Positions 16,778 to 43,225 of a stretch of DNA of 64,000 nt are shown here, in pieces. The DNA lies in the NCBI GenBank assembly GCA_027491255.1, contig JAIXWM010000175.1:1-64000 (forward strand), read 5' to 3'. The first letter of the stretch is position 1. The number at the start of each line of letters is the position of its first letter. This DNA is from Rubrivivax sp. GTDB taxonomy: Bacteria > Pseudomonadota > Gammaproteobacteria > Burkholderiales > Burkholderiaceae_C. The notes beneath the pieces were generated by a model. That model saw only the letters and a list, made by a program, of their open reading frames with translations. It was not told where the DNA came from and made no database searches. Position numbers and translations under genes: made by a program.

Positions 16778-17725
16778 TCAGAAATCCAGCACGATCCGTC
16801 CCTCGCCCCGGGACACGCAGGTCATCATCGCGCGGCAGCGGCCCGCATCGTCCAGCACCACGTCGCGGTGCAGCACGGTGCCCGCTGCGACGGGCCGTTC
16901 GCAGGCCCCGCACACGCCGATCCGGCAGGCCGAGGCGACGATGAAGCCGGCCTCGCGCAGCACGTCCAAGGCCGAGTGGTGCGCCGGCACCGGCAGCACC
17001 TGGCCCGTGGACCGGATCTGCAGCTCGAAGGCCTGCGGCGGGGTGGCATCGGCAAGCGGCACGAAGGCTTCGGCATGCACCCGCGACGGTGCCCAGCCCG
17101 CGGTGGCCGCGCGCACCGCCGCCGCCAGCGTGGGCGGGCCGCAGACGTAGACGTGCGTGCCCTCGTCCCGGCCGGCCAGCACCCGCGCCGCATCGAATCG
17201 CCGGCCGCCGGACGCCTTGGACAGCCAGGGCTGCAGCCGGGGGCCGAGCAGCGCCTCCAACTCGGCCAGGAAGGGGGCCGCGGCGTGGTCAGGAGCGGCG
17301 TAGTGCATCTCGAGCGCCTCGCCAGCCTGCGCCAGATGCCTGGCCATCGCCACCAGCGGTGTCACCCCGATGCCGCCGGCCACCAGCACGTGGCAGCGCG
17401 CGCCCGCGGAAAGCCGGAAATGGTTGCGCGGCGCGCTGACATGCGCCTGCACGCCGGGCCGCAGGTGCTCGTGGATCCAGCGCGAGCCCCCGCGCCCCTG
17501 CGGCTCGAGCTTGACGGCGATGACGTAGCGCGTGGGGTCGGCCGGGTCGCCACACAGCGAATACTGCCGCACCTGCCCGTTGCCGAGGTGCACGTCGACA
17601 TGGCTGCCCGGCTCGGGCGCCGGCAGGGTCGGCCTGCGCGGATGGCGCAGCATGATGCGCCGCACCTGCGCGCCGAGGTCCTCGACCCCGACCACGTCGA
17701 GCTTCATGATCAGGCGCGCCGTCAC
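16778..17725 (-). CDS. VanB-type FMN/2Fe-2S oxygenase reductase
   Basis: The 315-residue protein has a flavin-binding barrel (RQYSLCGDP), an NAD-binding domain (GGIGVTPLVAMARH; YVCGPPTLAAAV) and a C-terminal plant-type ferredoxin domain with CRIGVCGACERPV and a final CVSR. This is the phthalate-dioxygenase-reductase/VanB layout, which passes electrons from NAD(P)H to a Rieske oxygenase or similar enzyme. No oxygenase lies beside it; the nearest Rieske alpha/beta pair is about 20 kb away. It follows the MOSC gene by 37 bases. MKLDVVG at residue 7 is an alternative start. Confidence 0.92.
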   Translation of the reverse strand: MTARLIMKLDVVGVEDLGAQVRRIMLRHPRRPTLPAPEPGSHVDVHLGNGQVRQYSLCGDPADPTRYVIAVKLEPQGRGGSRWIHEHLRPGVQAHVSAPRNHFRLSAGARCHVLVAGGIGVTPLVAMARHLAQAGEALEMHYAAPDHAAAPFLAELEALLGPRLQPWLSKASGGRRFDAARVLAGRDEGTHVYVCGPPTLAAAVRAATAGWAPSRVHAEAFVPLADATPPQAFELQIRSTGQVLPVPAHHSALDVLREAGFIVASACRIGVCGACERPVAAGTVLHRDVVLDDAGRCRAMMTCVSRGEGRIVLDF

Positions 17726-28580: not shown

Positions 28581-29648
28581 TCAGACGGCCTCGTACACCG
28601 CAAAGACCTTGTTCGAATTGAACACGTGCGTGCCGACGAAGCGGCTCCAGGCCAGGCGGGCGCCCAGGGCCTGCATCGCGCCCAGCAACGGGCACCAGTT
28701 CAGCAGTTCCTGCTGGCCGGCAGCCTCGAAGTCGGCGGTCGTGCTGCGGCGCCAGGCCGCGTAGTCGCCACGCTGCAGCGCCTGGTACAGCGCGCGGTCG
28801 GCTGTGGTGTCGGGAAACAGGCGCCAGGTGCGGTCGCACAGGAAGGCGTGTGACCAGCTCGACGACGCGACCAGCGCGACGCGCCAGGAGGAGTCGCGCA
28901 GGATGCGCGCGGTGGCCGCGCCCAGGTCCATGCAGCGCGCCGGGGAGGGGCCGGGCGGGTCGAAGTCCAGCGCCGCGCCGAAAGGGCTCATGAAGCCGCG
29001 GGCCGAGATCACGCGCCGCCCGTAGCAGTTGATCGGCACCGCGATCGTCGGGTAGGGCCAGCCTTGGCGGTCGTGGTCGAGGTAGAGGATGGCATTGGTG
29101 AAGGCATGCGCCAGACTCGGGTGGTGCAGCGGCTTGTAGGCGTAGGCGACGTCGAAGCCGCTGTCGATCAGCCCGGTCACGAGGTGCCGCGCCACGTCGC
29201 GCCGACCGCGCACACGGTAGTGCTTGTCGGGCCCCTCGCCCCAGGCGTTGGGCTTGCCGGCCATCATCGACGAGCCCTGGGCGTGGCGCCAGGGATGCAC
29301 GTCGATGTCGTCATAGGCGCAGACGGTGAAGGCGGGGATCACGTCCTCGCGGAAGTTCTCGTACTGGTCATCGCCCCAGATGAGCACGACGTCGGGCTGG
29401 AATTCGTCGAGGGCGCGGCGCACCTAGCGGAACTCGGCGACCAGGGCGGCGCGGTGCGCCGCGGCGGCCGCCGTGCCCTCGTCATCACCCCACTCGGCGC
29501 GCGCGGCCTCGGGCCAGACCCGCGGGTCCTTGACCCCCTCGGGGATGCCCTGATCGCGCAGGGTGACGCGCAGGATGGTCGCCATCTGCTCGTCCGGCAG
29601 CGACAGCGGCGGGTAGTGCGACAAGCCCAGTCCCAGCAGCTCGGCCAT
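28581..29648 (-). pseudogene. LigB-type (class III) extradiol ring-cleavage dioxygenase interrupted by one amber codon
   Basis: A good ribosome site (GAGAGGAGAGGG) precedes the ATG at 29648, and the frame runs 74 codons to TAG at 29426-29424. The same frame then continues without gap for 280 more codons to 28581. The upstream part has LGLGLSHYPPLSL and ends LVAEFR. The downstream part begins RRALDEFQPDVVLIWGDDQYENF and contains SSWSHAFL, as expected for a LigB-type non-haem Fe(II) dioxygenase. The junction suggests that a codon such as AAG became TAG. A reinitiation GTG sits at 29423. The 356-codon span equals a full-length family member. It is the last gene on the minus strand after the MarR/LprI pair, so it probably belonged to the aromatic operon. 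Confidence 0.88.
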
Positions 29649-29708: not shown

Positions 29709-31130
29709 TCAGCGCAGCTCCGCCAGACGCTGCCGGTAGGCGCGCGCCAGGCAGTCCCTGTCAGCGCAGGGCCGCATCGACTCACGCAACCAGCGCAGTT
29801 GCTCCTGGCGCAACTTGTCCTTGTCCGCGGCCGCGTCGCGCGCGCGCCGATAGGCCAGGCTGAGTTCCACGTCCAGACCGGCGAGTTCGCGGTCGGCACA
29901 GACCATCTTCTCGGTGGCGTGCGTCGCCTTGACGCAGTCGAAGCTCGGACCCGCCGGCGCCGCGGCGGGCGCCACCGCAGGCAAAGGCGCCGCAGGCACC
30001 TGGGCAGGCGCTGCCGCGGCCATCGGCGCGGGCGCGGGCACGGGAGCCTGGGGCGGCGCTGGCGCAAAGGGCGCCGCGGGCGCCGGTGCGGCAAGGGGCG
30101 CAGGCGCCAGGGCAGGCGCGGGTGCCGGCCGCGGGGCCGCGGCGGGTGCCGGCGCCAACGGCGGCAGCAGCGCGACCGGCAACGGCACCTTGCGCGTCAC
30201 CGCGAACGTCCAGTTCGACCGGTTCTCGGGCAGATAGACCGCCGTGCAGCGCTCGTTCTCGGCCTGGCCGGAGACATGGTCGTCGCGCACCTCGCGCTTC
30301 CACTGCTCGTCGCTCAGGCCACACAGGCCGTTGATCGCCTGGCGAATGCGTGCCACCGTGGTCGCCGTGCGGCTGGTGCTTCCAGCGAACTCCACGACGT
30401 TGCCGTCGCGGTCGTAGCGCAGTTCCACGCTGCGCAGTTCGATGCCGAACCAGCGGTCCTGCCGGTTCAGCCCGCCCGACTCCTGGAATGGTGCCCAGGC
30501 GCTCTTGCGCCCGCCGAAGGGCGAGGTCGCCGCCTCGAGCGCATTGGGCGCCCGCCCCGGTGCGGCAGACCCCGGGCGCGCTCCGGGCAGACCCACTGCG
30601 TCGAACTGGAAGATGAACTCGGGGCTGGCGACCTTCCCGCTCAGCGTCAGGCTGCTCTCGCGCAGGCAGTCGCCGTCGGAGCCCGGCAGGAACCGGCCGG
30701 AAAAGGCGACGGTCCGGCCCTTCTTCAACGCCGAGGCGGTCTGGAAAAGATCGCTCGCCGGGTCGATCAGCGTCTTGTCCAGCAGGTCGGAGAAGGCGTT
30801 GTTCCAGGTCTTGACCTGCACGTTCGGCGCAATCTCGATGCCCAGCACGCCCTTGCCGTCGCTGTTGGCGTCGATCGTGATGACCTTGCCGGTCCAGCCG
30901 CTGACCTCGCGATCGGGCAGCAGCTTGCACAGCGCACTCTCGCGCCGCTGCTTGGCGCCACCCTTCTGCATCGCGTTGTCGGCGCGCTTGAACTCCTGCT
31001 GCGCCTGCACGACGATCTCGACGAAGCGGCGCTGCTCGCCGGTCTGCGAAGGCAGGCTCTGGGCCTGGACTTGCAGCGCGGCAAGCCAAGCACAGGCCCA
31101 GGTCAGGCGCGACCAGGCGGCTGTCTTCAT
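29709..31130 (-). CDS. Exported protein with C-terminal LprI-like domain
   Basis: The 473-residue product has a signal peptide (residues 1-23, LAALQVQAQS). An uncharacterised N-terminal half with several Cys follows, then a Pro/Ala-rich linker of about 70 residues (near 325-395). The C-terminal domain (SFDCVKATHATEKMVCADRELAGLDVELSLAYRRA) matches the LprI/DUF1311 lysozyme-inhibitor-like fold, with Cys pairs at CVKA/VCAD and RPCADRDC. The domain is known from LprI to inhibit lysozyme; the function of this protein is not known. Its ATG overlaps the MarR stop codon (ATGA), so the two are co-translated. Confidence 0.8.
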   Translation of the reverse strand: MKTAAWSRLTWACAWLAALQVQAQSLPSQTGEQRRFVEIVVQAQQEFKRADNAMQKGGAKQRRESALCKLLPDREVSGWTGKVITIDANSDGKGVLGIEIAPNVQVKTWNNAFSDLLDKTLIDPASDLFQTASALKKGRTVAFSGRFLPGSDGDCLRESSLTLSGKVASPEFIFQFDAVGLPGARPGSAAPGRAPNALEAATSPFGGRKSAWAPFQESGGLNRQDRWFGIELRSVELRYDRDGNVVEFAGSTSRTATTVARIRQAINGLCGLSDEQWKREVRDDHVSGQAENERCTAVYLPENRSNWTFAVTRKVPLPVALLPPLAPAPAAAPRPAPAPALAPAPLAAPAPAAPFAPAPPQAPVPAPAPMAAAAPAQVPAAPLPAVAPAAAPAGPSFDCVKATHATEKMVCADRELAGLDVELSLAYRRARDAAADKDKLRQEQLRWLRESMRPCADRDCLARAYRQRLAELR

Positions 31131-31705
31131 CGCTGGCTTTCATTCTCGGTCTGCTCACGGCGGACGGCGCCGGATTCGTCCGTGGCGCCGGCCGCCCTGC
31201 GCTGCTCGATCATCCCGCGCAGGGTCCGCTTCAAGGCCTCGGCCTGGTCCAGACCGAAAGGCTGGAGCACGCGGGCCTCGTGTTCGCGCGCGAGCGCGAT
31301 CAGCGCAGAGACGGTACGCTGTCCCTCGGGGGTGATGCGCACGCGCGTGATGCGGCGGTCTGCCGTGTCGGCCAGCCGCTCGACCTGGCCGCGGGATTCC
31401 ATGCGGTCGAGCATGCGGGTCGCCGTCGGCCCCTTGTTCAGGGAAATCTGCGCGAGCTTGCCCGTGGTGAGCGTGTGGCCTCCCGACAGCGTGGCCAGCA
31501 CGCGCCACTCCGCCACCGACAGCCCGTGCGCCCGCACGACGCGGTGGAACTCGCCCGAGATCAGCTCGCTGGCCTGTGCGAGCAGCGCCGCGAGGTAGGT
31601 GTCGACAAAGGGCCGCTGTGCGTCGCTCGGGGCCACACCGGCACCGGGCGCCGCCGCGACCCCGCCCTGGGGGCTCGAGACGTTCCCGGAGTCGTCCACC
31701 CGCAT
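31127..31705 (-). CDS. MarR-family transcriptional regulator
   Basis: The 192-residue protein has a dimerisation region, then a winged helix: LSVAEWRVLATLSGGHTLTTGKLAQISLNKGPTATRMLDRMESRG. A wing region follows, with DRRITRVRITPEG. MarR proteins usually repress aromatic-catabolism or efflux genes until a phenolic or acyl-CoA ligand binds. It sits five bases after the SDR gene near the end of the dioxygenase operon, so it is likely the operon's regulator. A short TATTT/AAATA palindrome overlaps the promoter before iorA. Confidence 0.92.
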   Translation of the reverse strand: MRVDDSGNVSSPQGGVAAAPGAGVAPSDAQRPFVDTYLAALLAQASELISGEFHRVVRAHGLSVAEWRVLATLSGGHTLTTGKLAQISLNKGPTATRMLDRMESRGQVERLADTADRRITRVRITPEGQRTVSALIALAREHEARVLQPFGLDQAEALKRTLRGMIEQRRAAGATDESGAVRREQTENESQR

Positions 31706-31710
31706 TCGCC

Positions 31711-32481
31711 TCAGATGGTGAGCGTGCCCACGCTCGCGCCGCCGCAGACGTAGAGCACCTGGCCGGTGACGAAGCCGGCACCGGGGTCGGCGAAGAAGTC
31801 GACGGCGCGCGCCACGTCCTCGGGCGTGCCCAGGCGCTGCACCGGGATCGCCGCGGCCAGGCGCTGCTCGCGCTCGCTGTCAGCGGGCACGACGGCATGG
31901 AACATTTCGGTGCCGCGGATCGGCCCGGGCGCGACGACGTTGACGGTGATGCCCTCGGGTGCCAGTTCCAGCGCCCAGGTGCGCGCCAGGCCGATCATGC
32001 CGGCCTTGGTGGCCGCGTAGACGCTGCGCGTGGCCAGGCCGAGCGCGCCGCGCGAGGAGATCAGCACGATGCGGCCGAAGCCGCGCGCACGCATGCCCGG
32101 GCGCACGGCCTGCGCAATGGCGATCGCGCTGCCCAGGTGCAACTCGGTCAACGCGTCCAGATCCTCCAGTTGCACATCGGCCAGCAGCGCCGGGCGGATC
32201 ACGCCGGCGTTGTGAACGAAGGTGTCCACCCGGTGGCGCTGCGCCAGTGCGACGGCGACGGCTCGGGTGGCTTCCCGGTCGGTGAGATCGACCTCGACGC
32301 TGATCAGTCGCGGGTGGTCGATCGGCGTCGGACGCCGTGCCAGCGCCAGTACCGTCAGGCCGCGCGCGAGCAGGTGCTCGCAGATCGTCAGCCCGATCCC
32401 GGTGCTGGTGCCGGTGACGAGGGCGCAGGCGTCGGTGGCGGCAGGGGCTGGGTCACCCGCCAGGGGGACGGTGGGGTTCAT
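31711..32481 (-). CDS. Short-chain dehydrogenase/reductase
   Basis: The 256-residue SDR has an intact cofactor motif TGTSTGIG, the structural NNAG-type HNAG motif, and catalytic Ser-Tyr-Lys in ISSRGALGLATRSVYAATK. It could oxidise a dihydrodiol, a 3-hydroxyacyl-CoA or another alcohol in the pathway encoded upstream. The start at 32481 is preceded by GGAG at suitable spacing. An open frame extending to 33219 crosses the repeat array and the cyclase gene and was not used. Confidence 0.92.
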   Translation of the reverse strand: MNPTVPLAGDPAPAATDACALVTGTSTGIGLTICEHLLARGLTVLALARRPTPIDHPRLISVEVDLTDREATRAVAVALAQRHRVDTFVHNAGVIRPALLADVQLEDLDALTELHLGSAIAIAQAVRPGMRARGFGRIVLISSRGALGLATRSVYAATKAGMIGLARTWALELAPEGITVNVVAPGPIRGTEMFHAVVPADSEREQRLAAAIPVQRLGTPEDVARAVDFFADPGAGFVTGQVLYVCGGASVGTLTI

Positions 32482-32513: not shown

Positions 32514-32569
32514 GGCTTTCGGGCTTTCGGGCTTTCGGGCTCTCGGGCTCTCGGGCTCTCAGGCCCCCG
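32514..32569. repeat. 8-bp tandem repeat array (about seven units)
   Basis: The plus strand reads GGCTTTCG three times (32514-32537), GGCTCTCG twice (32538-32553), GGCTCTCA (32554-32561) and a degenerate GGCCCCCG. The stop codon of the cyclase gene falls inside the sixth unit, so the rest of the array is downstream and non-coding. Confidence 0.95.
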
Positions 32570-33380
32570 GCACCAGCGCCAGCACGCGCAGCGGGCTGCC
32601 GCTGCCCTGCTCGATCTTCAGCGGCGGGCAGATCAGCACGCTGCCGGTGGGGGGCAACTGGTCCAGGTTGCACAGGCACTGCAGCCCGTAGCGCCCGGCC
32701 CCGTGCATGAAATAGTGGCAGGGATAGGGTGGGCGCAGGTGGTAACCCTGGCCGGCATCGGTGCCGATGGCCTCGGAGCCGAAGCCCAGCACGTCGCGCT
32801 GCTCGACCAGGAACTGCACCGCCTCGCTCGACGGCCCGGGCGTGTGCTGGCCGGTCTCGTCGAAGTTCTGGTAGGCCTCGGGGTCGCGGCGGCGGCTCCA
32901 GTCTGTGCGCATCAGCACCCAGGCGCCGGCTGGGATGCGGCCGTGCGCGCGCTCGAAGGCGTCGATGTCTGCCACTGTCAGCAGGTAGTCGGGGTCGGCG
33001 GCGGCCTGCTCGTGGCAGTCGATCACGCAGGCCGGGGCGACGAAGTGCTGCACCGGGATCGTGTCGACGGCATTGTTCGCAAGGTGACGGCCGGAGATCC
33101 AGTGGATGGGCGCGTCGAAGTGCGTGCCGGTGTGTTCGCCGCAGGAGAAGTTGTTCCAGTACCAGCCGGGGCCGCGCTCGTCGTAGCGCGAGACCTCCTC
33201 GATACGAAACGGCCAGCACTGCCCCATCTCGGGGGGCAGCGCGATCTGTGGGAACCCCGGGCTCAGCGTCTGCGTCAGGTCGACGACGCGGATGCCACCG
33301 CGCCCCAGCGCGCCGGCCAGGGCCGCCAGCAGCTGCGCTGGTGAGAGCTGCGGCGCGGTCGCGTGTGCGGTCTCGGTCAT
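32559..33380 (-). CDS. Cyclase-family metal-dependent hydrolase (kynurenine-formamidase/isatin-hydrolase-like)
   Basis: The 273-residue protein carries the family motif HTGTHFDAPIHW, which supplies manganese or zinc ligands, and GPSSEAVQFLVEQRDVLGFGSEAIGTDAG in the second half. Members hydrolyse amide or lactam bonds (N-formylkynurenine, isatin) or related polyketide esters. In an operon with a ring-hydroxylating dioxygenase and IorAB, opening an oxidised indole or cyclic intermediate is a possible role; this is inference. It begins four bases after the stop of the DUF35-SDR gene. The stop codon lies within an 8-bp repeat array. Confidence 0.88.
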   Translation of the reverse strand: MTETAHATAPQLSPAQLLAALAGALGRGGIRVVDLTQTLSPGFPQIALPPEMGQCWPFRIEEVSRYDERGPGWYWNNFSCGEHTGTHFDAPIHWISGRHLANNAVDTIPVQHFVAPACVIDCHEQAAADPDYLLTVADIDAFERAHGRIPAGAWVLMRTDWSRRRDPEAYQNFDETGQHTPGPSSEAVQFLVEQRDVLGFGSEAIGTDAGQGYHLRPPYPCHYFMHGAGRYGLQCLCNLDQLPPTGSVLICPPLKIEQGSGSPLRVLALVPGA

Positions 33381-33384
33381 GTCC

Positions 33385-34635
33385 TCAACCCCCTGCAGCG
33401 AGTTCGCGCTCGAGCACGCGCGGATCCTCGCGCCAGCGCTCCAGCCACTCCTGCGCCACGTCACCGGGGTAGACGTCCTCCACCCCGTCCTTCAGCGCCT
33501 GCACCACGGCCCGGGCCAATGCATCGGGCGCCAGCTTGGGCGGCGGCAGGTTCTGGTTCCACTCGTCGTCCACCGGCCCGGGGAAGACGTTGACGACCCG
33601 GATGCCCGCCGGCCGCATCTCGGCACGCAGGCACTGCGCCAGCGAGTGCGCCGCCGCCTTGCTGGCCGAGAACGTGCCGTGGGGTGGAAAGTTCGCCAGC
33701 GCGTAGATCGACAGCAGGTTGACCCAGGCCGTGGCGTGCGTCGTCCCGTCGGCCGAGCGCCCCTTGAGCGCCGGACCGAACTCCTGCGCCAGGCGCAGCA
33801 GGCCGAAGTAGTTGACGTCCATCTCGGCACGCGCGGCGTCGGTACCGCGGCGTGCGCCGATACCGTGCGCTCGGTGCACCTCGGCGTTGTTGACGACGAT
33901 GTCGACCTTGCCGCCGATCTCGCCGGCCAGTTCCACCACGCAGCGCCCGTCGGTCACGTCCAGCGGCACCAGCGTGACCTGCGGCAGCGCGCGCAGCGCA
34001 TCGAAGCCGGGCAGCTTCTTCCAGGGCTCGGCATGGCCGACCCAGACGATGTCGGCCCCGGCGGCGACGAAGGCACGCACCAGGGCCTGCCCGAGCGGCG
34101 TCTTGCCGTCGCTCACCAGCACCTTGCGGAACTTCGGGTCGCTGCCCATCTCGCGCAGCATCTTGTCGTCGGCCATGTGCGGGGTCTCCGGATCGGGAAG
34201 GGCGATGACGACGGCGCGACCGGCACGGTCCAGCCGGGCCGTCAGATGCACCGGCTGGCCCGCCGCGGCGACGTCGCCGTGCAGGTGGACGACCAGCGTC
34301 GGGCCGCTGTCCAGGCGCACCAGGCCCAGGCGCCAGGGCAGTCGCTCCCGGAAGAACAGGTCGTTGCTGTGATGCAGCGTCGTCGCCGCCAGCAGGCGCC
34401 CGGCACCGGACTGGACGCGCCAGCGCAGGCGCGCCGAAACGCAGGCATGGCAGGCGTCGCGCGGGGGGTACTGCACGGCGCCGCAGTCCTGGCACACCTG
34501 CAACTCGAGCCGGCCCTCGGCGGCGGCCGCCGTCAGGCCCAGGGCGACACGGCCGCGCGCCCACGGCGGCAGGTTCATCTGCGGCGTGCGCAGCACCGGG
34601 TTCTTGCGCGGCGGGCGCATCAGCGGCATCGTCAT
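33385..34635 (-). CDS. Fusion: DUF35 zinc-ribbon/OB-fold domain plus degenerate SDR domain
   Basis: The 416-residue protein joins two domains. Residues ~40-145 are a DUF35 unit with zinc-ribbon Cys48/51/62/65 (CQDCGAVQYPPRDACHAC) and an OB part. Residues ~168-400 are SDR-like, but the glycine motif reads SDGKTPLGQA, NNAG is NNAE, and the catalytic Tyr position is Phe322 (Ser309...Phe322-SASK326). DUF35 proteins bind acyl-CoA and pair with thiolase-fold partners. Here the partner gene lies just upstream and overlaps by an ATGA. A classical SDR reaction is unlikely from these residues; a binding or structural role is more plausible. The ATG at 34635 fits the overlap. Confidence 0.85.
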   Translation of the reverse strand: MTMPLMRPPRKNPVLRTPQMNLPPWARGRVALGLTAAAAEGRLELQVCQDCGAVQYPPRDACHACVSARLRWRVQSGAGRLLAATTLHHSNDLFFRERLPWRLGLVRLDSGPTLVVHLHGDVAAAGQPVHLTARLDRAGRAVVIALPDPETPHMADDKMLREMGSDPKFRKVLVSDGKTPLGQALVRAFVAAGADIVWVGHAEPWKKLPGFDALRALPQVTLVPLDVTDGRCVVELAGEIGGKVDIVVNNAEVHRAHGIGARRGTDAARAEMDVNYFGLLRLAQEFGPALKGRSADGTTHATAWVNLLSIYALANFPPHGTFSASKAAAHSLAQCLRAEMRPAGIRVVNVFPGPVDDEWNQNLPPPKLAPDALARAVVQALKDGVEDVYPGDVAQEWLERWREDPRVLERELAAGG

Positions 34636-35807
34636 GCGGGAGCCCCCAGGATGGCGGCGCCGGTGCACAGGCAGCGGTCGTAGGTGACCATGCCGTAGCC
34701 GCCGACCAGGCCCAGGCGCGCGCCGGCCACCTGCCGGCCTGCCGCCTGGCCGGTGAGCTGGCGCAGCGCCTCGTTGACGTTCATGAAGCCGCCCGCCGCC
34801 CCCGCCTGCCCCGACGACAGCTGCCCGCCCGAGGTGTTCAGCGGAAAGCTGCCATCGTGCGTGAAGCGGTGCGCGCGCACGAAGTCCGGGGCCTCGCCGA
34901 GCTCGCAGAACCCCAGGCCCTCGAGCTGCATCATCACGATGACCGGGTAGTCGTCGTAGGCCTGCACGAAGTCGATGTCAGCCGGCCGCGCGCCTGCCAT
35001 CGCGTACAGCTCGGGCAGGTCAACGCGCCAGCCGCCGCGCACCATCACCGGGTCGTCCTGGTAGGCGTTGTGGCGCTCGATCGTGCCGCGCAGGGTGACG
35101 TGGGCCAGGCCGAGGTCGCGCGCGCGCTGCTCGCTCATCACGAGGAAGGCCTCGGCGCCGGCGCAGGGCATCACGCAGTCGAACAGGTGGATGGGCTCGG
35201 CAATCGGGCGCGCGGCCAGGTACTCGTCCAGCGTCAGCGGCTTCCTGAAGAAGCGCGAGCCGTAGGCCAGCGCATTGGCGCGCTGGTCCACGCACAGGCG
35301 CCCGAAGTCCTCGCGGCGCGCGCCGCTGCTCGCCATGTAGTTTGCGGTGATGAAGGCAAACAGCGCGTTCGGCCCGCCCGAGCCGTAGGGGTAGGTCGCG
35401 TCGCGCGCGAACTGGCTGAACGAGCCCAGCATCAGGCGGAAGGAGTCGACGTGGTTGGTGTCGGCCGCCACGCAGGCGACGACGCTGGCGTCGCCGGCCT
35501 GCACCGCGCGCGCGGCGCGGCGCAGCGCCATCACGCCGCTGGCGCCGCCGTTGGGCAGGTGGTCGAGCCAGCGCGGGCTCAGGCCCAGGTGCTGCGTCAC
35601 GCCGACCGCGGTGTCGGGTCCGAGCGAGAAGCTGCTGACCGTCAGGCCGTCGATGTCGTCCTTGCGCAGGCCGCTCGCGTCCAGCAGCGAGCGCACCGCA
35701 CGGCCCAGGAACCAGTGCGCGCCGCGCGTCGAATAGCGCACATAGGGCACGGTCACCGGCACGCAGACGGCAACGCCCTCGTAACCGCGGCGGGACCCGC
35801 TTGCCAC
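34632..35807 (-). CDS. Thiolase-fold (lipid-transfer-protein/SCP2-type) protein lacking the usual catalytic Cys and His
   Basis: The 391-residue protein has the thiolase fold of the Ltp/SCP-x branch. Where thiolases have C-x-S-G, it reads NGGASG, so the nucleophile position is Gly88. The GHP motif near the C-terminal NTSGGQLSSGQAG is Gln-Ala instead. Ltp2-type retro-aldolases form complexes with DUF35 proteins and do not use the thiolase Cys, so an acyl-CoA retro-aldol or related reaction is a reasonable inference. The GTG start at 35807 lies four bases after the ligase stop, and the end overlaps the DUF35-SDR start by four bases. Confidence 0.88.
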   Translation of the reverse strand: MASGSRRGYEGVAVCVPVTVPYVRYSTRGAHWFLGRAVRSLLDASGLRKDDIDGLTVSSFSLGPDTAVGVTQHLGLSPRWLDHLPNGGASGVMALRRAARAVQAGDASVVACVAADTNHVDSFRLMLGSFSQFARDATYPYGSGGPNALFAFITANYMASSGARREDFGRLCVDQRANALAYGSRFFRKPLTLDEYLAARPIAEPIHLFDCVMPCAGAEAFLVMSEQRARDLGLAHVTLRGTIERHNAYQDDPVMVRGGWRVDLPELYAMAGARPADIDFVQAYDDYPVIVMMQLEGLGFCELGEAPDFVRAHRFTHDGSFPLNTSGGQLSSGQAGAAGGFMNVNEALRQLTGQAAGRQVAGARLGLVGGYGMVTYDRCLCTGAAILGAPA

Positions 35808-35811
35808 CGCC

Positions 35812-37491
35812 CTACCCCACCCGCCGCTTCAGCGCGCGCGTGTCCACACAGTGCGCCTGCCCGGGCAGCGCCTGCGCCAGCGCCTTCAGCTCGCCGCGCT
35901 GGATCTTCTGCGACGCCGTCAGCGGCAGCGCCTCCACGAAAGCCACCCAGCCCGGGGCCTTGTAGTAGGCCAGCCGTTGCAGCGCGTGCTCCACCAGCGC
36001 CGCGGCCAGCGACGCCTGCGCCTGCGCATCGGCCGGCTCGTGCAGCACCACGCAGGCCAGCACCTCGTCGCCGCGCACCGCGTCAGGCGTGGCGGCCACG
36101 GCGCAGGCCTTGACGGCCGGGTGCTGGTTCAGCACGCCCTCGACCTCGACGGCCGAGATGTTCTCGCCGCTGCGGCGGATCACGTTCTTGCGCCGGTCGA
36201 TGAAGTGCAACTGTCCGTCGGTGTCGCGGCTGACGATGTCGCCGGTGTGGAACCAGCCGCCGGCCCAGGCCTCGGCCGTCGCCTCCGGGTCCTTGAGGTA
36301 AGCGCTGAAGAAGCCATCGCGAGGATCGGCCCCGGCATGCCTCACCCACAGCTCGCCGGGCTCGCCGCGGGCCGGATCGCTGCCGTCGTCGGCCACCAGC
36401 CGGACCTCGACGTCCGCGCCCTCGCGGCCGAAGCAGTTGGTGCCGACCTGGCGCGGCTCGCGATGCGCCATCACCACCGCGCCGGCGCCGGTCTCGGTCA
36501 TGGCCCAGGCCTCCAGCAGCGGAAAGCCGAAGCGTGCTTCGAAAGGCGCGTGCAGGGCGCGCTCGACGCCAGCGCCGAAACCGAAGCGCACCGCGTGCAC
36601 GCGGTCGTCGTCGCGCGCAGGCGCCTTCATCAGCAGGGCCGGCATCACGCCCAGGTAGTGAACGACGCTGGCGCGACTGGCGCGCACGCTGTCCCACCAC
36701 GTGCCGGGATGGAAGCGGTCGAGCAGGATCAGGCAGCCGCCGGTGAGCACCATCGCCATCACCGAGTAGGCCTTCGCGTTCATGTGGACCAGCGGCAGCG
36801 GCGTCAGCATCCGCTCCTCGGCCGGCCTCAGCGCCGCCATGCCGCCGACTGCGGCGTACCAGGCGCCGGCATGCAGGTAGTAGCGATTGGTCAGCACGCA
36901 GCCCTTGGGGCGGCCTGTCGTGCCGCTGGTGTACAGCAGCCCGCACTCCGTGTGCAGGCCGGGCACGGCATCGGTCTGCGGCGGCGGCAGCGGCGCCGGG
37001 GGTGGCGCATCGTCGTCGGTCGTCAGAGCCAGCGCGCGGCCCGCGGCGCGGGCTGCGGCGGCGAGGTCGGCATGGCGGTGCGGCAGCGCGACCGCGAGCA
37101 CGATCTCGGAGTGGCCGACCAGGTATTCGAGCTCGGCCGAGCGCAGCTCGGCATTGATCGGCACGACCGAGATGCCCAGGCCGTTCAGCGCGAACCAGTG
37201 CAGCAGGAAGGCCGGGCGGTTCTCCAGCAGCAGGCCGACGCGGTGGCCGGCCCCGTAGCCGGCGCCTGCGTAGGCAGCCCGCAGCGACTGCACACGGGCC
37301 AGCGCCTGCGCGTAGCTGAGCTCGCCGGCCTCGATGCCGTAGACGGCGGCGGTCTCGGGCAAGACCTGGACGAAGGGTCGGTCGCCCCAGCGCGCGGCGG
37401 CGGCTGCGAAGGCCGCGGCGACGCTCGGCTGGGCCGCGGGCTCGAGGCCCGAGGCGTCGCGGGCTGGAAGCGAATCTGAAGAAGGGATCAT
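35812..37491 (-). CDS. AMP-forming carboxylate-CoA ligase
   Basis: The 559-residue ANL enzyme has YTSGTTGRPKGCVLTN, AWAMTETGAGAVVMAH, GWFHTGDIVSRDTDG, RRKNVIRRSGENISAVEVE and a C-terminal LTASQKIQRGEL with the catalytic Lys. It should turn the pathway acid into a CoA ester before the thiolase/DUF35 step. It starts 15 bases after the dioxygenase beta gene and ends four bases before the thiolase-fold gene, so it is firmly within the operon. Substrate class cannot be told from motifs; it is not a close match to benzoate-CoA ligase by eye. Confidence 0.92.
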   Translation of the reverse strand: MIPSSDSLPARDASGLEPAAQPSVAAAFAAAAARWGDRPFVQVLPETAAVYGIEAGELSYAQALARVQSLRAAYAGAGYGAGHRVGLLLENRPAFLLHWFALNGLGISVVPINAELRSAELEYLVGHSEIVLAVALPHRHADLAAAARAAGRALALTTDDDAPPPAPLPPPQTDAVPGLHTECGLLYTSGTTGRPKGCVLTNRYYLHAGAWYAAVGGMAALRPAEERMLTPLPLVHMNAKAYSVMAMVLTGGCLILLDRFHPGTWWDSVRASRASVVHYLGVMPALLMKAPARDDDRVHAVRFGFGAGVERALHAPFEARFGFPLLEAWAMTETGAGAVVMAHREPRQVGTNCFGREGADVEVRLVADDGSDPARGEPGELWVRHAGADPRDGFFSAYLKDPEATAEAWAGGWFHTGDIVSRDTDGQLHFIDRRKNVIRRSGENISAVEVEGVLNQHPAVKACAVAATPDAVRGDEVLACVVLHEPADAQAQASLAAALVEHALQRLAYYKAPGWVAFVEALPLTASQKIQRGELKALAQALPGQAHCVDTRALKRRVG

Positions 37492-37506: not shown

Positions 37507-37995
37507 CTACATGAAGAGCTGCATGTTGCCGAAGCTGGCATCGCAGTTGACCAGGTCCACGCGCTTGAGCCGGATGCGCAGCCCGGCCGGCGTGGCGGCC
37601 AAGGTGTGCGTGGCCCAGCCGGCGTACAGCTGCTGCTCGTCGCGCCGGGTCTCGACATAGTGGAAGGCGCAGCGCGTCACGTAGACGCCCGCCGCCTCGT
37701 CGCGCGACTCCACCGTCGGCGCCTGCAGCAGGTGGTGGCAGCGGCTGGCCGGCTGCTGCGAGTAGGTGCGCGCGCCGCGCAGGCGCTCCACCCGTACCTG
37801 GAGCAGCAACTTGTCCTCGTGCATCAGCGAGGCGTGCAGCCGTGCGTCCGTCTGGCCCGCAGCAAGCGGCATCCAATAGAAGCCGTCCTCGGCGAACAGC
37901 GCCAGCCAGTCCTCGAAGCGCAGTTCGTCGAGCAGGCGGGCCTCGGCGTAGACGAAGTCGGTCAGTTCGCGGTCGGTGGGGACAGGCGTGCTCAC
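37507..37995 (-). CDS. Aromatic-ring-hydroxylating dioxygenase, beta subunit
   Basis: The 162-residue protein has the SnoaL-like fold pattern of Rieske-oxygenase small subunits: FVYAEARLLDELRFEDWLALFAEDGFYWMPL near the start and RCHHLLQAP with TRCAFHYVETRRDEQQLYAGWATH later. Beta subunits have no cofactor and shape the alpha3-beta3 hexamer. The gene follows the alpha gene by 61 bases. Its length is usual for benzoate/anthranilate-type small subunits. Confidence 0.93.
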   Translation of the reverse strand: MSTPVPTDRELTDFVYAEARLLDELRFEDWLALFAEDGFYWMPLAAGQTDARLHASLMHEDKLLLQVRVERLRGARTYSQQPASRCHHLLQAPTVESRDEAAGVYVTRCAFHYVETRRDEQQLYAGWATHTLAATPAGLRIRLKRVDLVNCDASFGNMQLFM

Positions 37996-38056: not shown

Positions 38057-39430
38057 TCATGCCACCGCCCCGGCCGGCGGCGCCGATGCGGCTTCGGATG
38101 CGCCTGAACCCATGGTGGCCGTCATGTAGCGCACCCAGGCGCGCATCTGGTTGCGCATCTGCCATTCGTTCGTGCCGTTGGTCACGGCCGTGGCCTGGCC
38201 GCGCTCGGCCGGGTCGTACAGACGGCCGAGGTTGACCCAGTCGGCGCCACGGCTGCGCAAGCCCTCCTGGGAGCGCTCATAGACCTCCAGGTCGTCGTGG
38301 CCGACGACCGAGGTCGGCGCATTGATCAGGCGGTTGTACATCAGCGTGCGCTCGAACAGCAGGTCGGGCGCGCCCACGGGGCGGAAGGTCCAGGACTCCA
38401 CGAGCGTGCGGTCGGCCGCCAGGGGCTTGAACAGACGCAGCGTCTGGATCGGCCCCTTGACCATGATGTTCGGGAAGTAGATCGTGTTGTGGCGCACCTC
38501 ACCGAGGATGCGGCCGGCGCGCTCCTCGCCGTAGGCCGCGACCATGGCCTCCCAGTAGCCGGGAATGGGCGAGTAGCCGGCGTGCAGCGAGTCGGCCACG
38601 CCGGTGTGTCCGTGCCCGTGGTCCCAGACGCGAATACCCATCTTCTCGAAGAAGTCGTACGGGTTGACGAAGGGCGCGAACAGCTCCACGGCCATCGGCT
38701 TGGGCGTGCCCGGCGGCGCCGCCTGCCACACGCGCACGGCCGTGCCGGCCGAGGACTGGTGCGCCACCATCGGGTGGCAGGTGTCGGTCTGGTTGTCGAC
38801 CAGCATCTTCCAGTTGCAGCGGTGCAGGTAGCGGAAGACACCGCCCGCCACCTCGAGCCGCCCCTCTGGGGAACGGTCGACCATGTTGTCCAGCGTGCTC
38901 AGCGAGTCGCCGAAGTAGTCCTCGAAGCTCACGCCCACCGGGTTCAGGCGGCAGAAGACGAAGTCACGGTAGACATGCATCGCACCCACCGGCGCCAGGC
39001 CGCGGCGCGCCTCGGACTGCTGGAAGGCCGGGTTGGCGTAGCCCTCGCGCAGCGGCGTGGCCAGCAGCGAGCCGTCGGTACGGTAGGTCCAGGCGTGGTA
39101 AGGGCAGCGCAGGATGTTGCCCACATGCGCCGGCCCCTCGGGCACGAGCTGCACGCCCTTGTGCGCGCAGCGGTTGTGCAGCACACGCAGGCTGCCGTCG
39201 GCCTGGCGCACCATCACCACCGGCTGGTCGCCCACCGTCGTGGCATAGGCATCGCCGGGTTGCGGCGTCTGGCTGGCATGGCCCACATAGACCCAGGTGT
39301 TGGCGAACAAGTGCTCCATCTCGAGCGCGAAGATCTCGGGGTCGATGTAGCAGTCGCGGTGGACCTCGGTCTCGCGCACGAGCGCGGCGACGGCGTCGGG
39401 GCGGTCGCGGTAGCGGGAGGTTCTGGGCAT
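38057..39430 (-). CDS. Aromatic-ring-hydroxylating dioxygenase, alpha subunit (Rieske)
   Basis: The 457-residue catalytic subunit has Rieske 2Fe-2S ligands C88, H90, C109 and H112 (CAHKG; CPYHAW), the NWK motif, and mononuclear iron ligands H219 and H224 with bridging Asp216 (DTCHPMVAH). It would insert O2 into an aromatic acid or heterocycle, giving a cis-diol or oxidised ring, and needs an electron donor. No ferredoxin or reductase is in this operon; a VanB-type reductase lies at 16.8 kb. The start at 39430 follows the iorB stop by 44 bases. The substrate is unknown; by general pattern it belongs with benzoate/anthranilate/indole-acid type enzymes. Confidence 0.94.
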   Translation of the reverse strand: MPRTSRYRDRPDAVAALVRETEVHRDCYIDPEIFALEMEHLFANTWVYVGHASQTPQPGDAYATTVGDQPVVMVRQADGSLRVLHNRCAHKGVQLVPEGPAHVGNILRCPYHAWTYRTDGSLLATPLREGYANPAFQQSEARRGLAPVGAMHVYRDFVFCRLNPVGVSFEDYFGDSLSTLDNMVDRSPEGRLEVAGGVFRYLHRCNWKMLVDNQTDTCHPMVAHQSSAGTAVRVWQAAPPGTPKPMAVELFAPFVNPYDFFEKMGIRVWDHGHGHTGVADSLHAGYSPIPGYWEAMVAAYGEERAGRILGEVRHNTIYFPNIMVKGPIQTLRLFKPLAADRTLVESWTFRPVGAPDLLFERTLMYNRLINAPTSVVGHDDLEVYERSQEGLRSRGADWVNLGRLYDPAERGQATAVTNGTNEWQMRNQMRAWVRYMTATMGSGASEAASAPPAGAVA

Positions 39431-39474: not shown

Positions 39475-41091
39475 TCAGCCGGCCAGTCCGTGACGGCGCA
39501 GCGCCGCCTGCAGCGACCGCCCATGCTCGTCGGCCAGCGCCGCATCGCGCAGTTCGGCCAGCAGCGCTGGCGCCGGGCGGGCCGCGCCACGCCAGACGAG
39601 GCGCAAGGTCTCGAAATTGCGCCAGCCGCGCGCGTGCGTGTCGCCATAGCCCTTGACCAGGCGCTGGCAGCGCGCGATCTCGACGGCCAGCGCCGGGTCG
39701 GTGGCGACGACGGCGCGCAGATCGGTCAGCCAGTCCTCGATGCGCGCGTTCTCGACCGCGTAGCGCAGCGTGGAACGGCGCCAGCGCCGCAGCAAGGCGA
39801 CGCCGGTGAGCATCAGGTAGCCGCGCAGCGAGCTCGTCTCGACGACGCGTCCGCGCGCGAACAGGCGCTCGACCCAGCGCCGCGGCGCCCCGGAGGCGAG
39901 CAGCCATCGGCCCACGGGCGCGGGCAGCGTCTCGGCGATCTCCTGCAGGCGCGGGTGCAGGTACTCCTGGATCGCGAGCAACTGGTCGTCACCGGCGCGC
40001 ACCTCTCCACGCACGCGAGCGAAACGCGAGTCGCGCGTCTTCAGGTCGGCCACCCGGATCGTGTCCTCCCAGCTCATCCACAGCGCCAGATGGCGCGCCA
40101 CCTCGCGCAGCAGCGTCGTCGTCTGCGGCTGCGCCGCCGCCCCGCGCGCCGCGGCGCGCACCGTGTCCAGGCGGTCGAGGTAGAGGCTGGCGTAGGCCGG
40201 GTCCTGGTAATCGATGCAGCGGCGCAGACCCTCGAGCACCAGTTCGAGGGCCTGGGCGTCTTCGGCAAGGGCCCGCGCGGCGCGGTCGATCAGGGCCTGC
40301 ACCGCCGGCTCGGCCGCCCGCGGCAGCCGGGCCGGTGGGGTGCTGGCGACCTGCGACGAAGTGGTGCCCGCAGCGCCACCCGGGGCGGCTGCCGCAGGCT
40401 GCGGCCCGCCCGCGGCGGTGGCCCGGTCATAGGCCGCGGCAAACGCCCGCAGGCTGGCCGCCACGCCCACCCCACCCTGCTCGATCGTCACCTCGAACTG
40501 CGCGCGCGTGAAGGGCAACTCGCCAGTGGCGGCGAGCGCGCCGAACAACACCGCGCTGATCACGCTGCCCGACTCCTCGGCTGCCAGCGCCATGTCGAAG
40601 CCGACGAAGCGGCGCGCCGCGCCGCGCGCCAGGTCGAGCAGCGCCGCACTGTCGGCGCGGCCGTCGCCCATGGCCGTCTTCTCGGCGATGGCGTAGACGC
40701 GGTGGGTCGAGGTGACGAGCGTCGTGCGTTGCGGCGTCACCAGACCCCGTTGCACCGCGCGCCCGGCCTCCATCAGCTCGGAGGCCAGCACGACATCGAC
40801 ATCACCCGGCATCGGCATCAGCGCCATCACCGGGGCCTGCCCGGCCTGCTGCGCTGCCGCCGCCGGGAAAATCTCGACGTAATAGATCGTCGCCCCCGTG
40901 CGCTGCGCGACGCCCGGCACCGAAGTCGTCTGGGCGAGGTGGCCGTGCTGCTCGGCCAGGCTGACGAGCCAGTCGGCCAGCACGCCGCCGCCCTCCCCGC
41001 CCATCGCCAGGACGGCGATCTTGATCAGACGCGGCCCGTCCGTGTCGGGCAGGGCCTGCGCCGCGGGCGCGGCCGGGGCATCAGAACGCAT
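39475..41091 (-). CDS. iorB: Indolepyruvate:ferredoxin oxidoreductase, beta subunit, with C-terminal extension
   Basis: The first ~200 residues are the POR gamma-type domain (VLAMGGEGGGVLADWL; TSVPGVAQRTGATIYYVEI). The remaining ~300 residues form the DUF6537-like extension found in proteobacterial IorB (RRWRRSTLRYAVENARIEDWL; RLVKGYGDTHARGWRNFE). A Pro/Ala linker separates the two near residues 225-265. With IorA it would oxidatively decarboxylate an aryl-pyruvate to an aryl-acetyl-CoA, reducing ferredoxin. The 538-residue frame starts 11 bases inside the end of iorA, so the two are coupled. True substrate may differ from indolepyruvate. Confidence 0.92.
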   Translation of the reverse strand: MRSDAPAAPAAQALPDTDGPRLIKIAVLAMGGEGGGVLADWLVSLAEQHGHLAQTTSVPGVAQRTGATIYYVEIFPAAAAQQAGQAPVMALMPMPGDVDVVLASELMEAGRAVQRGLVTPQRTTLVTSTHRVYAIAEKTAMGDGRADSAALLDLARGAARRFVGFDMALAAEESGSVISAVLFGALAATGELPFTRAQFEVTIEQGGVGVAASLRAFAAAYDRATAAGGPQPAAAAPGGAAGTTSSQVASTPPARLPRAAEPAVQALIDRAARALAEDAQALELVLEGLRRCIDYQDPAYASLYLDRLDTVRAAARGAAAQPQTTTLLREVARHLALWMSWEDTIRVADLKTRDSRFARVRGEVRAGDDQLLAIQEYLHPRLQEIAETLPAPVGRWLLASGAPRRWVERLFARGRVVETSSLRGYLMLTGVALLRRWRRSTLRYAVENARIEDWLTDLRAVVATDPALAVEIARCQRLVKGYGDTHARGWRNFETLRLVWRGAARPAPALLAELRDAALADEHGRSLQAALRRHGLAG

Positions 41092-43225
41092 ACCGCGCCC
41101 GCCGTGCCGCCGCGCGCCGTTGCAGCCAGCCGATCACGCGAGCGCGCAGCGCCTCGCGCCAGCGGTCGGCCCGCGTGGGATTGCTGACGATGCGCGCCTT
41201 GTAGAACGAGGGGCAGAGCACCGCCGCATGCGAGACCTCGCCGCAAAGCCCGCAACCGACGCAGGAGTCGACCACCGCCGCCACCGGGTCGGTGCGCAGC
41301 GGATCAGGGTTGGGCTTGACCGTCAGCGAAGGACAGCCGGACAGGCGGATGCAGGAGTGGTCGCCGGTGCAGGTGTCCGGGTCGACGCCGAAACGCTCGC
41401 GCACGACGCGTTCACCCGCCGCCACGCGCTGGCGCTGCAGCGGCTTCTCGCGCCGCTGGCGGTTGAGCATGCATTCGCTTTGCGCCACGATGACCTTGGG
41501 GCCGCGCTCGCGCGTGGTCAGCGCCTCCTTCAAGGCCGCCTTCATCTGAGCCAGGTCGTAGGTGTGGGTGACCGTGCGCACCCACTTCACGCCCACCCCG
41601 CGCACCGCCGACTCGATGGCGTGGCCGGTGCTTCGCGTCGGGTTGACGGCCTTGGAAGACAGGATGTCCTGCCCGCCGGTGGCCGAGGTGTAGCTGTTGT
41701 CGACGACCACCGTCAGGTTGTCCGAACGGTTGAACACCGCGTTGGCAATGCCGCTGGTCAGGCCGTTGTGCCAGAAGCCGCCGTCTCCCATGACGCTGAT
41801 CGCGCGCTTGGCTGCGGGCACGTTCAGCGCCGCGGCGCCGGCCGTGCCCAGACCGTACCCCATCGTCGTGTTGCCCAGGTTGAAGGGCGGCAGGATGGAG
41901 AACAGGTGGCAGCCGATGTCGGCCGAGACATGGTGCTCGCCGAGCTCGCGTTCGACCAGCTTCATCGCGGTGAAGATCGGCCGCTCAGGGCAGCCGGTGC
42001 AAAAGCCGGGCGGACGCGCGTGGACGGTGGCGCCGGCCGGCAGCTCGATCGGGCCGGCGCGCGGCGCCGCCAAGGCCTGCGGCGGCAGTCGATCGTGGCG
42101 CTCGAGGAAGGCGCGAACGCCGGCCAGCACCTCGGCGGCCGTGTACTCGCCAGCCACCGGCAGCACGTCCTTGCCGTGCAGCGCGGTGTCACAGCCTGCG
42201 GCGCGCAGGATGGCCGCCACGTTCTGCTCGAGGTAGTTGGGCTGCCCTTCCTCGACCATCAGCACTGCGCGCTTGCCGCGGCAGAAGCGCACCACCTCAT
42301 CGTCCACCAGCGGGTAGGTGACGTTCATCACGTACAGCGGTACGCGGCTGCGCCCGAAGACATCGGCCAGCCCCACGCGCTCGAGCACGCGCAGCAGCGT
42401 GTTGTAGTGCCCGCCCTGGACGACGATGCCCACGTCGTCGAAGCCGCCGGGCGCGGCGTCGAAGAACTCGTTGAGCCCCCGCTCCTGGATGAAGCGCACC
42501 GCCGCGGGCCAGCGCTGCTGGATCTTCTCCTTCTCGTGCAGGAAGCTCGCGGGGGGCAGCACGATGCGGCTCGTGTCACGGCGCGGCTGCTCCATCGCCT
42601 CGCGCAGCGTGAAGGCCGGGCGCTGGTTGGCGCTGGCAACGAACTGCCCGTGCACGTGGCAGGCGCGGATGCGCAGCTGCAGCATCACCGGGGTATTGCT
42701 GGCCTCGCTGAGCTCGAAGCCGTCCTTCACCGCCTTGACGATGGACGGCAGGTTGGGCCGCGGATCGAGCAGCCAGATCTGCGACTTCATCGCGAAGGCG
42801 TGGCTGCGCTCCTGCATGATGGAGCTGCCCTCGCCGTAGTCCTCGCCGACGATGATGAGCGCCCCGCCGGTGACGCCGCCCGAGGCGAGGTTGGCCAGCG
42901 CATCGCTCGCGACGTTGGTGCCCACCGTGCTCTTGAAGGTGCAGGCCCCACGCAGCGGATAGTTCACGCTGGCCGCCAGCGTGGCTGCGGCCGTGGCCTC
43001 GCTGGCGCTGTGCTCGAAGTGGATGCCGTGCTCGGCCAGGATGTCCTGCGCGTCCGCCAGCACGTCCATCAGATGCGAGATCGGCGCGCCCTGGTAGCCC
43101 GAGACGTAGGACACGCCCGACTCCAGCAGCGCCTTCGTCACGGCCAGGATGCCCTCGCCGTGGAAGACCTCGCCCTCACCCAGGCGCAGCTTGCGAACTT
43201 CTTCGACGAAGGATCTTTCGGCCAT
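41081..43225 (-). CDS. iorA: Indolepyruvate:ferredoxin oxidoreductase, alpha subunit
   Basis: The 714-residue protein has an N-terminal POR alpha domain (SGYQGAPISHLMDVLADA), a TPP-binding domain with GDGGFWHNGL and VVVDNSYTSATGG (around residues 475-505), and C-terminal Fe-S motifs CTGDHSCIRLSGCPS and CVGCGLCGEVSHAAVLCP. It oxidises 2-oxo acids with CoA and an electron acceptor. It is the first gene of the operon, with GGGAG nine bases before the ATG and a sigma70-like promoter about 100 bases upstream. How an oxygen-sensitive enzyme works beside an O2-using dioxygenase is a point of interest, though this long proteobacterial form is common in aerobes. Confidence 0.94.
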   Translation of the reverse strand: MAERSFVEEVRKLRLGEGEVFHGEGILAVTKALLESGVSYVSGYQGAPISHLMDVLADAQDILAEHGIHFEHSASEATAAATLAASVNYPLRGACTFKSTVGTNVASDALANLASGGVTGGALIIVGEDYGEGSSIMQERSHAFAMKSQIWLLDPRPNLPSIVKAVKDGFELSEASNTPVMLQLRIRACHVHGQFVASANQRPAFTLREAMEQPRRDTSRIVLPPASFLHEKEKIQQRWPAAVRFIQERGLNEFFDAAPGGFDDVGIVVQGGHYNTLLRVLERVGLADVFGRSRVPLYVMNVTYPLVDDEVVRFCRGKRAVLMVEEGQPNYLEQNVAAILRAAGCDTALHGKDVLPVAGEYTAAEVLAGVRAFLERHDRLPPQALAAPRAGPIELPAGATVHARPPGFCTGCPERPIFTAMKLVERELGEHHVSADIGCHLFSILPPFNLGNTTMGYGLGTAGAAALNVPAAKRAISVMGDGGFWHNGLTSGIANAVFNRSDNLTVVVDNSYTSATGGQDILSSKAVNPTRSTGHAIESAVRGVGVKWVRTVTHTYDLAQMKAALKEALTTRERGPKVIVAQSECMLNRQRREKPLQRQRVAAGERVVRERFGVDPDTCTGDHSCIRLSGCPSLTVKPNPDPLRTDPVAAVVDSCVGCGLCGEVSHAAVLCPSFYKARIVSNPTRADRWREALRARVIGWLQRRAAARRARYAF

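Follow-up and report, generated by a model that had tools for sequence, protein, structure and literature searches.

The iad locus and its DUF35-SDR fusion gene

The window, a stretch of 64,000 nucleotides of Rubrivivax sp. DNA (contig JAIXWM010000175.1), carries on its minus strand a run of genes in the order IorA-like, IorB-like, Rieske alpha, Rieske beta, ligase, IadG, IadH, IadI, SDR and MarR (Table 1). With iadA/iadB, iadDE, iadF, iadG, iadH, iadI, iadJ and a MarR-family gene all present, this is an iad-type locus for the degradation of auxin (indole-3-acetic acid), as described in Variovorax (PMC9613470, PMC12633357), and the fusion gene studied here occupies the place of iadH. The same gene order, with a fusion 82% identical, was found in Variovorax sp. 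Root473 (L015), a strain studied in PMC11630574, and in V. paradoxus NBRC 15149 (L060); the IadH of V. paradoxus CL014, annotated as an alcohol dehydrogenase, is apparently an orthologue of the window's fusion. The iad pathway is an auxin-degrading route tied to the rescue of root growth by Variovorax and is being engineered into other root bacteria.

Table 1. Features of the iad locus in the window (nucleotide positions in the window; aa, amino acid positions in IadH).
Feature	Position	Strand	Basis
MarR-family regulator, iadR-like by position	31127..31705	-	
iadJ, SDR (TGTSTGIG, HNAG and SRG...YAATK intact)	31711..32481	-	
iadI, predicted isatin hydrolase	32559..33380	-	phmmer to 5nmp
iadH, DUF35 zinc ribbon/OB (aa 34-135), linker and pseudo-SDR (aa 166-416)	33385..34635	-	
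IadH pseudo-SDR part, aa 166-416	33388..34140	-	5u4s_B structural match; motif loss 112/112
Lys326 codon	33658-33660	-	
Phe322 codon (TTC)	33670-33672	-	
Ser309 codon	33709-33711	-	
Asp176 codon (lost first Gly of SDR motif)	34108-34110	-	
IadH DUF35 part, about aa 34-135	34231..34536	-	Pfam; PDB sequence match
Zinc Cys codons of IadH (Cys48, Cys51, Cys62, Cys65)	34492-34494, 34483-34485, 34450-34452, 34441-34443	-	
iadG, SCP2-thiolase-like fold, predicted retro-aldolase	34632..35807	-	sequence and model
iadF, acyl-CoA ligase	35812..37491	-	Pfam AMP-binding
iadE, Rieske oxygenase beta subunit	37507..37995	-	
iadD, Rieske oxygenase alpha subunit	38057..39430	-	
iadB, indolepyruvate oxidoreductase subunit beta family (IorB-like)	39475..41091	-	NCBIfam NF006179, above cut-off
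iadA, IorA-like TPP-dependent 2-oxoacid:ferredoxin oxidoreductase subunit	41081..43225	-	TIGR03336, E 1e-84, below cut-off

Regarding the redox enzymes of the locus, IadJ would be the sole dehydrogenase that the pathway needs here. No gene for the reductase IadC was detected beside iadD, and five homologs of 38-44% identity are located elsewhere in the genome; the window has a flavin/ferredoxin reductase gene (16784-17707, minus strand) whose product is 38% identical to an iadC-type reductase. IadA and IadB (39475-43225) may convert isatinate (a 2-oxo acid, 2-aminophenylglyoxylate) to anthranilate or its CoA ester, and a LigB-type extradiol dioxygenase gene or gene fragment lies near the iad cluster (28581-29423, minus strand).

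The iadH open reading frame encodes 416 aa, from an ATG at 34635 to a stop codon ending at 33385, and its start overlaps the stop of iadG by 4 bases. Three Pfam domains, zf-ChsH2 (36-68), OB_ChsH2_C (72-132) and adh_short (172-363), were each detected above cut-off, with the DUF35 models PF12172 and PF01796 among the matches, while for IadG, IadH and IadI no NCBIfam model reached its cut-off. The initial annotation, made from the letters of the window, had described a DUF35 domain fused to an SDR domain with Cys48/51/62/65, Ser309, Phe322, Lys326 and NNAE, and all of these are borne out by the translation and by Pfam, Phe322 lying in the motif FSASK; the identity of the locus as iad, the aldolase-type residues in the active site of the partner and the isatin hydrolase gene that follows are additions to that annotation. 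The zinc-ribbon Cys residues are invariant in 86 of 86 homologues. The best PDB sequence match of the DUF35 part is ChsH2(DUF35) (6ok1_B, E 6.7e-6), a membership assigned from sequence, the VIA-align matches of the IadH model being filled by SDRs. In the main texts searched of the papers on IadH, neither DUF35 nor the loss of SDR motifs is mentioned.

Motif loss and selection in the SDR part of IadH

When 112 full-length fusions, drawn from Beta- and Alphaproteobacteria, are aligned with 24 unfused proteins (the nearest single SDRs plus IadJ), the losses are seen to extend across the whole fusion family. The cofactor loop reads TDGKTxxGQ where classical SDRs have TGxxxGxG; the alteration of the glycine motif, already remarked on in the initial annotation, is general, the first Gly being replaced in all 112 fusions (Asp in 107, Asn in five) and the second being absent from 110. 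At residue 322 Phe is present in 89 fusions, Tyr in 14, Thr in four, His in two, and Val, Ala and Pro make up the remaining substitutions (T/H/V/A/P together nine). Lys326 is kept in 91 fusions and lost in 21, with the loss affecting most of the Alphaproteobacteria, and Ser309 is lost in five; a complete S-Y-K was detected in only six fusions, which also do not have the first Gly. Copies from Burkholderiales retain both Ser309 and Lys326, for which a residual local role is possible. Of the features of classical SDRs, the model of IadH has the Rossmann fold, and the protein has neither the cofactor loop nor, with Phe322, the S-YxxxK motif.

The unfused relatives have an intact TGAxxGIG-type loop where it is covered, keep the Lys and in most cases have NNAG; the Tyr is kept in most of them, one subgroup and the solved structure 5u4s having Leu. 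Four loci (L121, L130, L131 and L135) encode single-domain SDRs near the IadH domain in which the Tyr is Leu and a TG(A/T)xxGIG-type loop is intact.

In the phylogeny the fusions group as a single clade with an SH-aLRT of 96 and a long stem. On this tree residue 322 has changed at least 14 times and residue 326 at least nine times. Phe322 had been singled out as the key feature, with its conservation among homologues proposed as a check; the residue is variable among the 112 fusions, and the number of changes on the tree rules it out as a conserved specialisation. Judged by sequence, the replacement of Tyr by Phe belongs to a wider release of the IadH family from catalytic constraint, and the SDR domain is predicted to be non-redox throughout, as had been suggested at the outset. 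In the most divergent member, from Paroceanicella, Pfam finds no SDR domain and the zinc ribbon is still present. Residues conserved only in the fusions (R170, R255, R293, D296, W359, Q361 and R400) may delineate a surface or pocket that has its own function.

The SDR part is under purifying selection, with a dN/dS of about 0.14 compared with 0.20 for the DUF35 part (87 close orthologues), and can therefore be regarded as inert yet constrained rather than decayed. Its fold is intact in the predicted model of IadH (pLDDT 83.5), which matches 5u4s_B with Z 33.5 and an rmsd of 1.6 over 236 residues. This SDR of Burkholderia cenocepacia (PRK08264-like) is the nearest solved relative, at 35% identity; unlike IadH it has a single domain, and it was crystallised with NADP. 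The assembly copy (L001) and an independent, 97% identical contig (L011) have the same TTC codon for Phe322, so Phe322 is not a sequencing error. This identity and the dN/dS value rule out both a sequencing error and local decay at the Tyr codon, alternatives that the initial annotation had allowed for, and no fusion keeps the first Gly.

The search for DUF35-SDR fusions outside the IadH family yielded no independent fusion among the PF01796 loci scanned in 150 Pseudomonadota genomes, where an SDR in the same frame was found only in the window's copy; these loci are the sites for which a locus was retrieved, the G150 copy, a known IadH, being among the sites without one. Within this Pseudomonadota scan the DUF35-SDR fusion looks rare.

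IadG, IadI and removal of the auxin side chain

Of 111 loci, 106 have iadG directly next to iadH and in the same orientation, most of the others being cut contigs, and this linkage agrees with the earlier proposal that the SDR fusion belongs with the adjacent thiolase-fold protein. IadH keeps company with IadG wherever the contig allows, while IadI, IadJ and the oxygenase can be missing.

IadG is annotated as an acetyl-CoA acetyltransferase. Its key positions are Y284-D285-D286-Y287, G87-G88 at the position of the thiolase Cys, Q329 and Q334. The YDDY motif is invariant in 101 of 101 IadG copies and aligns with YDCY in Sal and with YDHF in Ltp2, the Tyr of which is the catalytic base (PMC12329534). 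At the position of the thiolase nucleophile IadG has Gly-Gly, as does Sal, and no Cys was detected there in any of the 101 copies; Gln329 and Gln334 correspond to Gln347 and Gln352 of CtSal. Cys304 is needed by CtSal, the A, S and H mutants being dead (PMC12329534). In IadG, Asp286 replaces this Cys and Gln334 replaces Tyr344 of Ltp2, both invariantly, substitutions that also count against an aldolase function. Among solved structures the best sequence match is Sal (9myr, E 1e-50), followed by 4u4e and Ltp2 (6ok1), and the IadG model (pLDDT 79.8) matches Sal-Shy(DUF35) (9myr) with Z 44.9 and Ltp2-ChsH2(DUF35) (6ok1) with Z 42.3, compared with about 32 for ordinary thiolases. Because its second catalytic residue differs (Asp286, Gln334), IadG would form a separate aldolase-like group, neither Sal nor Ltp2, with a predicted acid-base pair.

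Two known systems are close in make-up. In the actinobacterial steroid aldolase-hydratase ChsH2-Ltp2 (with ChsH1), as in IadGH, DUF35 is fused to an inert enzyme domain and the partner is an SCP2-thiolase-like retro-aldolase, which in Ltp2 acts on a tertiary beta-hydroxyacyl-CoA. The inert domain of ChsH2 is a MaoC, located N-terminal to DUF35 and paired with the active ChsH1, whereas that of IadH is an SDR and C-terminal; Ltp2 has YDHF with Tyr344 and a steroid substrate, whereas IadG has YDDY with Gln334 and presumably an oxindole substrate. The MaoC domain of ChsH2 holds the substrate rings. It is inert, and the DUF35 domain of Shy is the part that binds the aldolase (PMC11321319). In Shy-Sal, the proteobacterial bile-acid hydratase-aldolase, DUF35 is likewise fused to an enzyme domain, and Sal is nearest to IadG by both sequence and structure; Shy, however, has an active MaoC domain and a Cys3His1 zinc site, in contrast to the Cys4 ribbon and inert SDR of IadH, and where IadG has YDDY, Sal has YDCY, the Cys of which is essential.

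Regarding the product, IadI is by sequence an isatin hydrolase, with phmmer matches to the isatin hydrolases 5nmp (E 2.6e-109) and 4j0n (E 7e-82) compared with 4e-5 for kynurenine formamidase, and it carries the metal motif HTGTHFDAP. Deletion of iadF, iadG or iadH in V. paradoxus leads in each case to the build-up of C10H9NO4 and the loss of anthranilate (PMC12633357); since the three deletions give the same block, IadH is placed at the step of IadG. For V. paradoxus CL14, both isatin and isatinate have been reported (PMC9613470). In the iadI deletion and with iadCDEFGH_J, a compound with the formula of dioxindole, C8H7NO2, accumulates rather than isatin, from which Jiang et al. infer reductive removal (PMC12633357). 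This result counts against cleavage by an aldolase, and we infer that C8H7NO2, isatin plus 2 H, is isatin reduced by other enzymes.

Dioxindole-3-acetyl-CoA has a tertiary alcohol at the beta carbon, which bars thiolysis and the formation of a 3-oxoacyl-CoA, and its retro-aldol cleavage gives isatin and acetyl-CoA with no change in redox state. We consider it probable (about 0.72) that IadG and IadH constitute a DUF35-dependent retro-aldolase for this reaction, in which the SDR part has a structural or substrate-holding role. IadF would first couple CoA to the tertiary beta-hydroxy acid dioxindole-3-acetic acid (DOAA); IadG, docked on IadH through the DUF35 domain, would then cut the C3-CH2 bond with Tyr284 as base and probably Asp286 as acid, releasing isatin and acetyl-CoA; and IadI would open isatin to isatinate. 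An SDR without cofactor loop and catalytic residues fits this scheme because no redox step would take place between IadF and IadI. The scheme would remove the side chain without a reductant and explains why isatin and isatinate are seen. The hydratase-like function first suggested for the SDR part finds no place here, the substrate being already hydroxylated and no step calling for hydration. By analogy with the inert MaoC of ChsH2, the pseudo-SDR could serve in oligomerisation or could cradle the oxindole ring or the CoA. More tentatively, IadG-IadH might represent a non-steroid class of DUF35-dependent retro-aldolases, defined by a Tyr-Asp dyad, with the SDR serving as cradle or clamp for the oxindole-CoA or as assembly core.

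One alternative is modelled on BbsCD of anaerobic toluene degradation, the pseudo-SDR of IadH forming a heterotetramer with the active SDR IadJ and thereby linking a dehydrogenase to the aldolase. BbsC is regarded as an inactive pseudoenzyme SDR subunit (cited in PMC10818641) and BbsAB is a DUF35-thiolase (7pxp), a DUF35-thiolase pair and a pseudo-SDR thus occurring in the same pathway as in IadGH, and 90 of the 111 loci contain iadJ, which as a rule lies two genes downstream. We nevertheless judge this arrangement unlikely. The Bbs proteins are encoded by separate genes and perform true thiolysis, the solved structures nearest to the IadH SDR part did not include BbsC, and IadJ acts before IadF, so the two steps are not neighbouring. 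Of the 15 whole genomes in which the G-H fusion occurs, four have no IadJ orthologue (best matches 34-38%, the level of generic SDRs), and no IadJ was detected near the loci of Sagittula, Shinella, Pukyongiella, Novosphingobium and Paroceanicella; IadJ is accordingly not the constant partner such a complex would have, which leaves room for another SDR.

That IadH is a working, Tyr-independent alcohol dehydrogenase or isatin/ketone reductase making dioxindole appears quite improbable. Its annotation and the accumulation of C8H7NO2 agree with such an enzyme, 5u4s binds NADP despite having Leu at the Tyr position, and Asp226 and Asn249 are mostly retained in the fusions; the loss of the Gly residues, of Lys326 and of Ser309 in the numbers given above speaks against it, as do the Paroceanicella SDR, which has diverged beyond recognition by Pfam, and the step preceding the isatin hydrolase, which requires no reductant. 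A true thiolase-type complex (BbsAB- or PhlABC-like) that performs thiolysis or transfers acyl groups and carries the SDR as a passenger would share the fold, the DUF35 partnering and the acetyltransferase annotation, but is very improbable given the missing nucleophile Cys, the invariant YDDY, the tertiary alcohol of DOAA-CoA and an isatin hydrolase as the next enzyme.

The retro-aldolase scheme conflicts with the published assignments, in which IadG is called a ketothiolase, IadH is annotated as an alcohol dehydrogenase and IadI is called a kynurenine formamidase (preprint PMC12633357); the sequences of the three proteins speak against these names. Pairs of DUF35 and aldolase are already known for steroids; within the literature covered, the inert SDR in place of MaoC, the YDDY active site and the indole-derived substrate are new, and the titles, abstracts and cited main texts propose no mechanism that involves DUF35 or retro-aldol cleavage with auxin or DOAA. 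The findings suggest that DUF35, an inert enzyme fold and an aldolase are also combined outside steroid metabolism and with folds other than MaoC.

Variants of the locus

Loci with G-H-I, often together with F, and without the Rieske oxygenase and IadJ were detected on plasmids of Sagittula (L104), Shinella (L105), Agrobacterium (L100) and Pukyongiella (L103), and in the genomes G303 and G428. Strains with G-H-I and no oxygenase may import auxin that has already been oxidised, for instance to DOAA, or else different tertiary beta-hydroxy acids. Genes F-G-H without an adjacent isatin hydrolase were found in Novosphingobium (L102, L111) and Paroceanicella (L101), in which the product or the substrate may differ. 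If the more tentative reading of IadG-IadH as a non-steroid class of its own is true, the F-G-H module that some bacteria have without oxygenase would serve more generally to strip acetyl groups from tertiary beta-hydroxy acids. A contig filed under an Acidobacteria metagenome bin (L077) has a Burkholderiales-like iad locus with 78% IadH identity, which is likely to be a binning error or a recent transfer.
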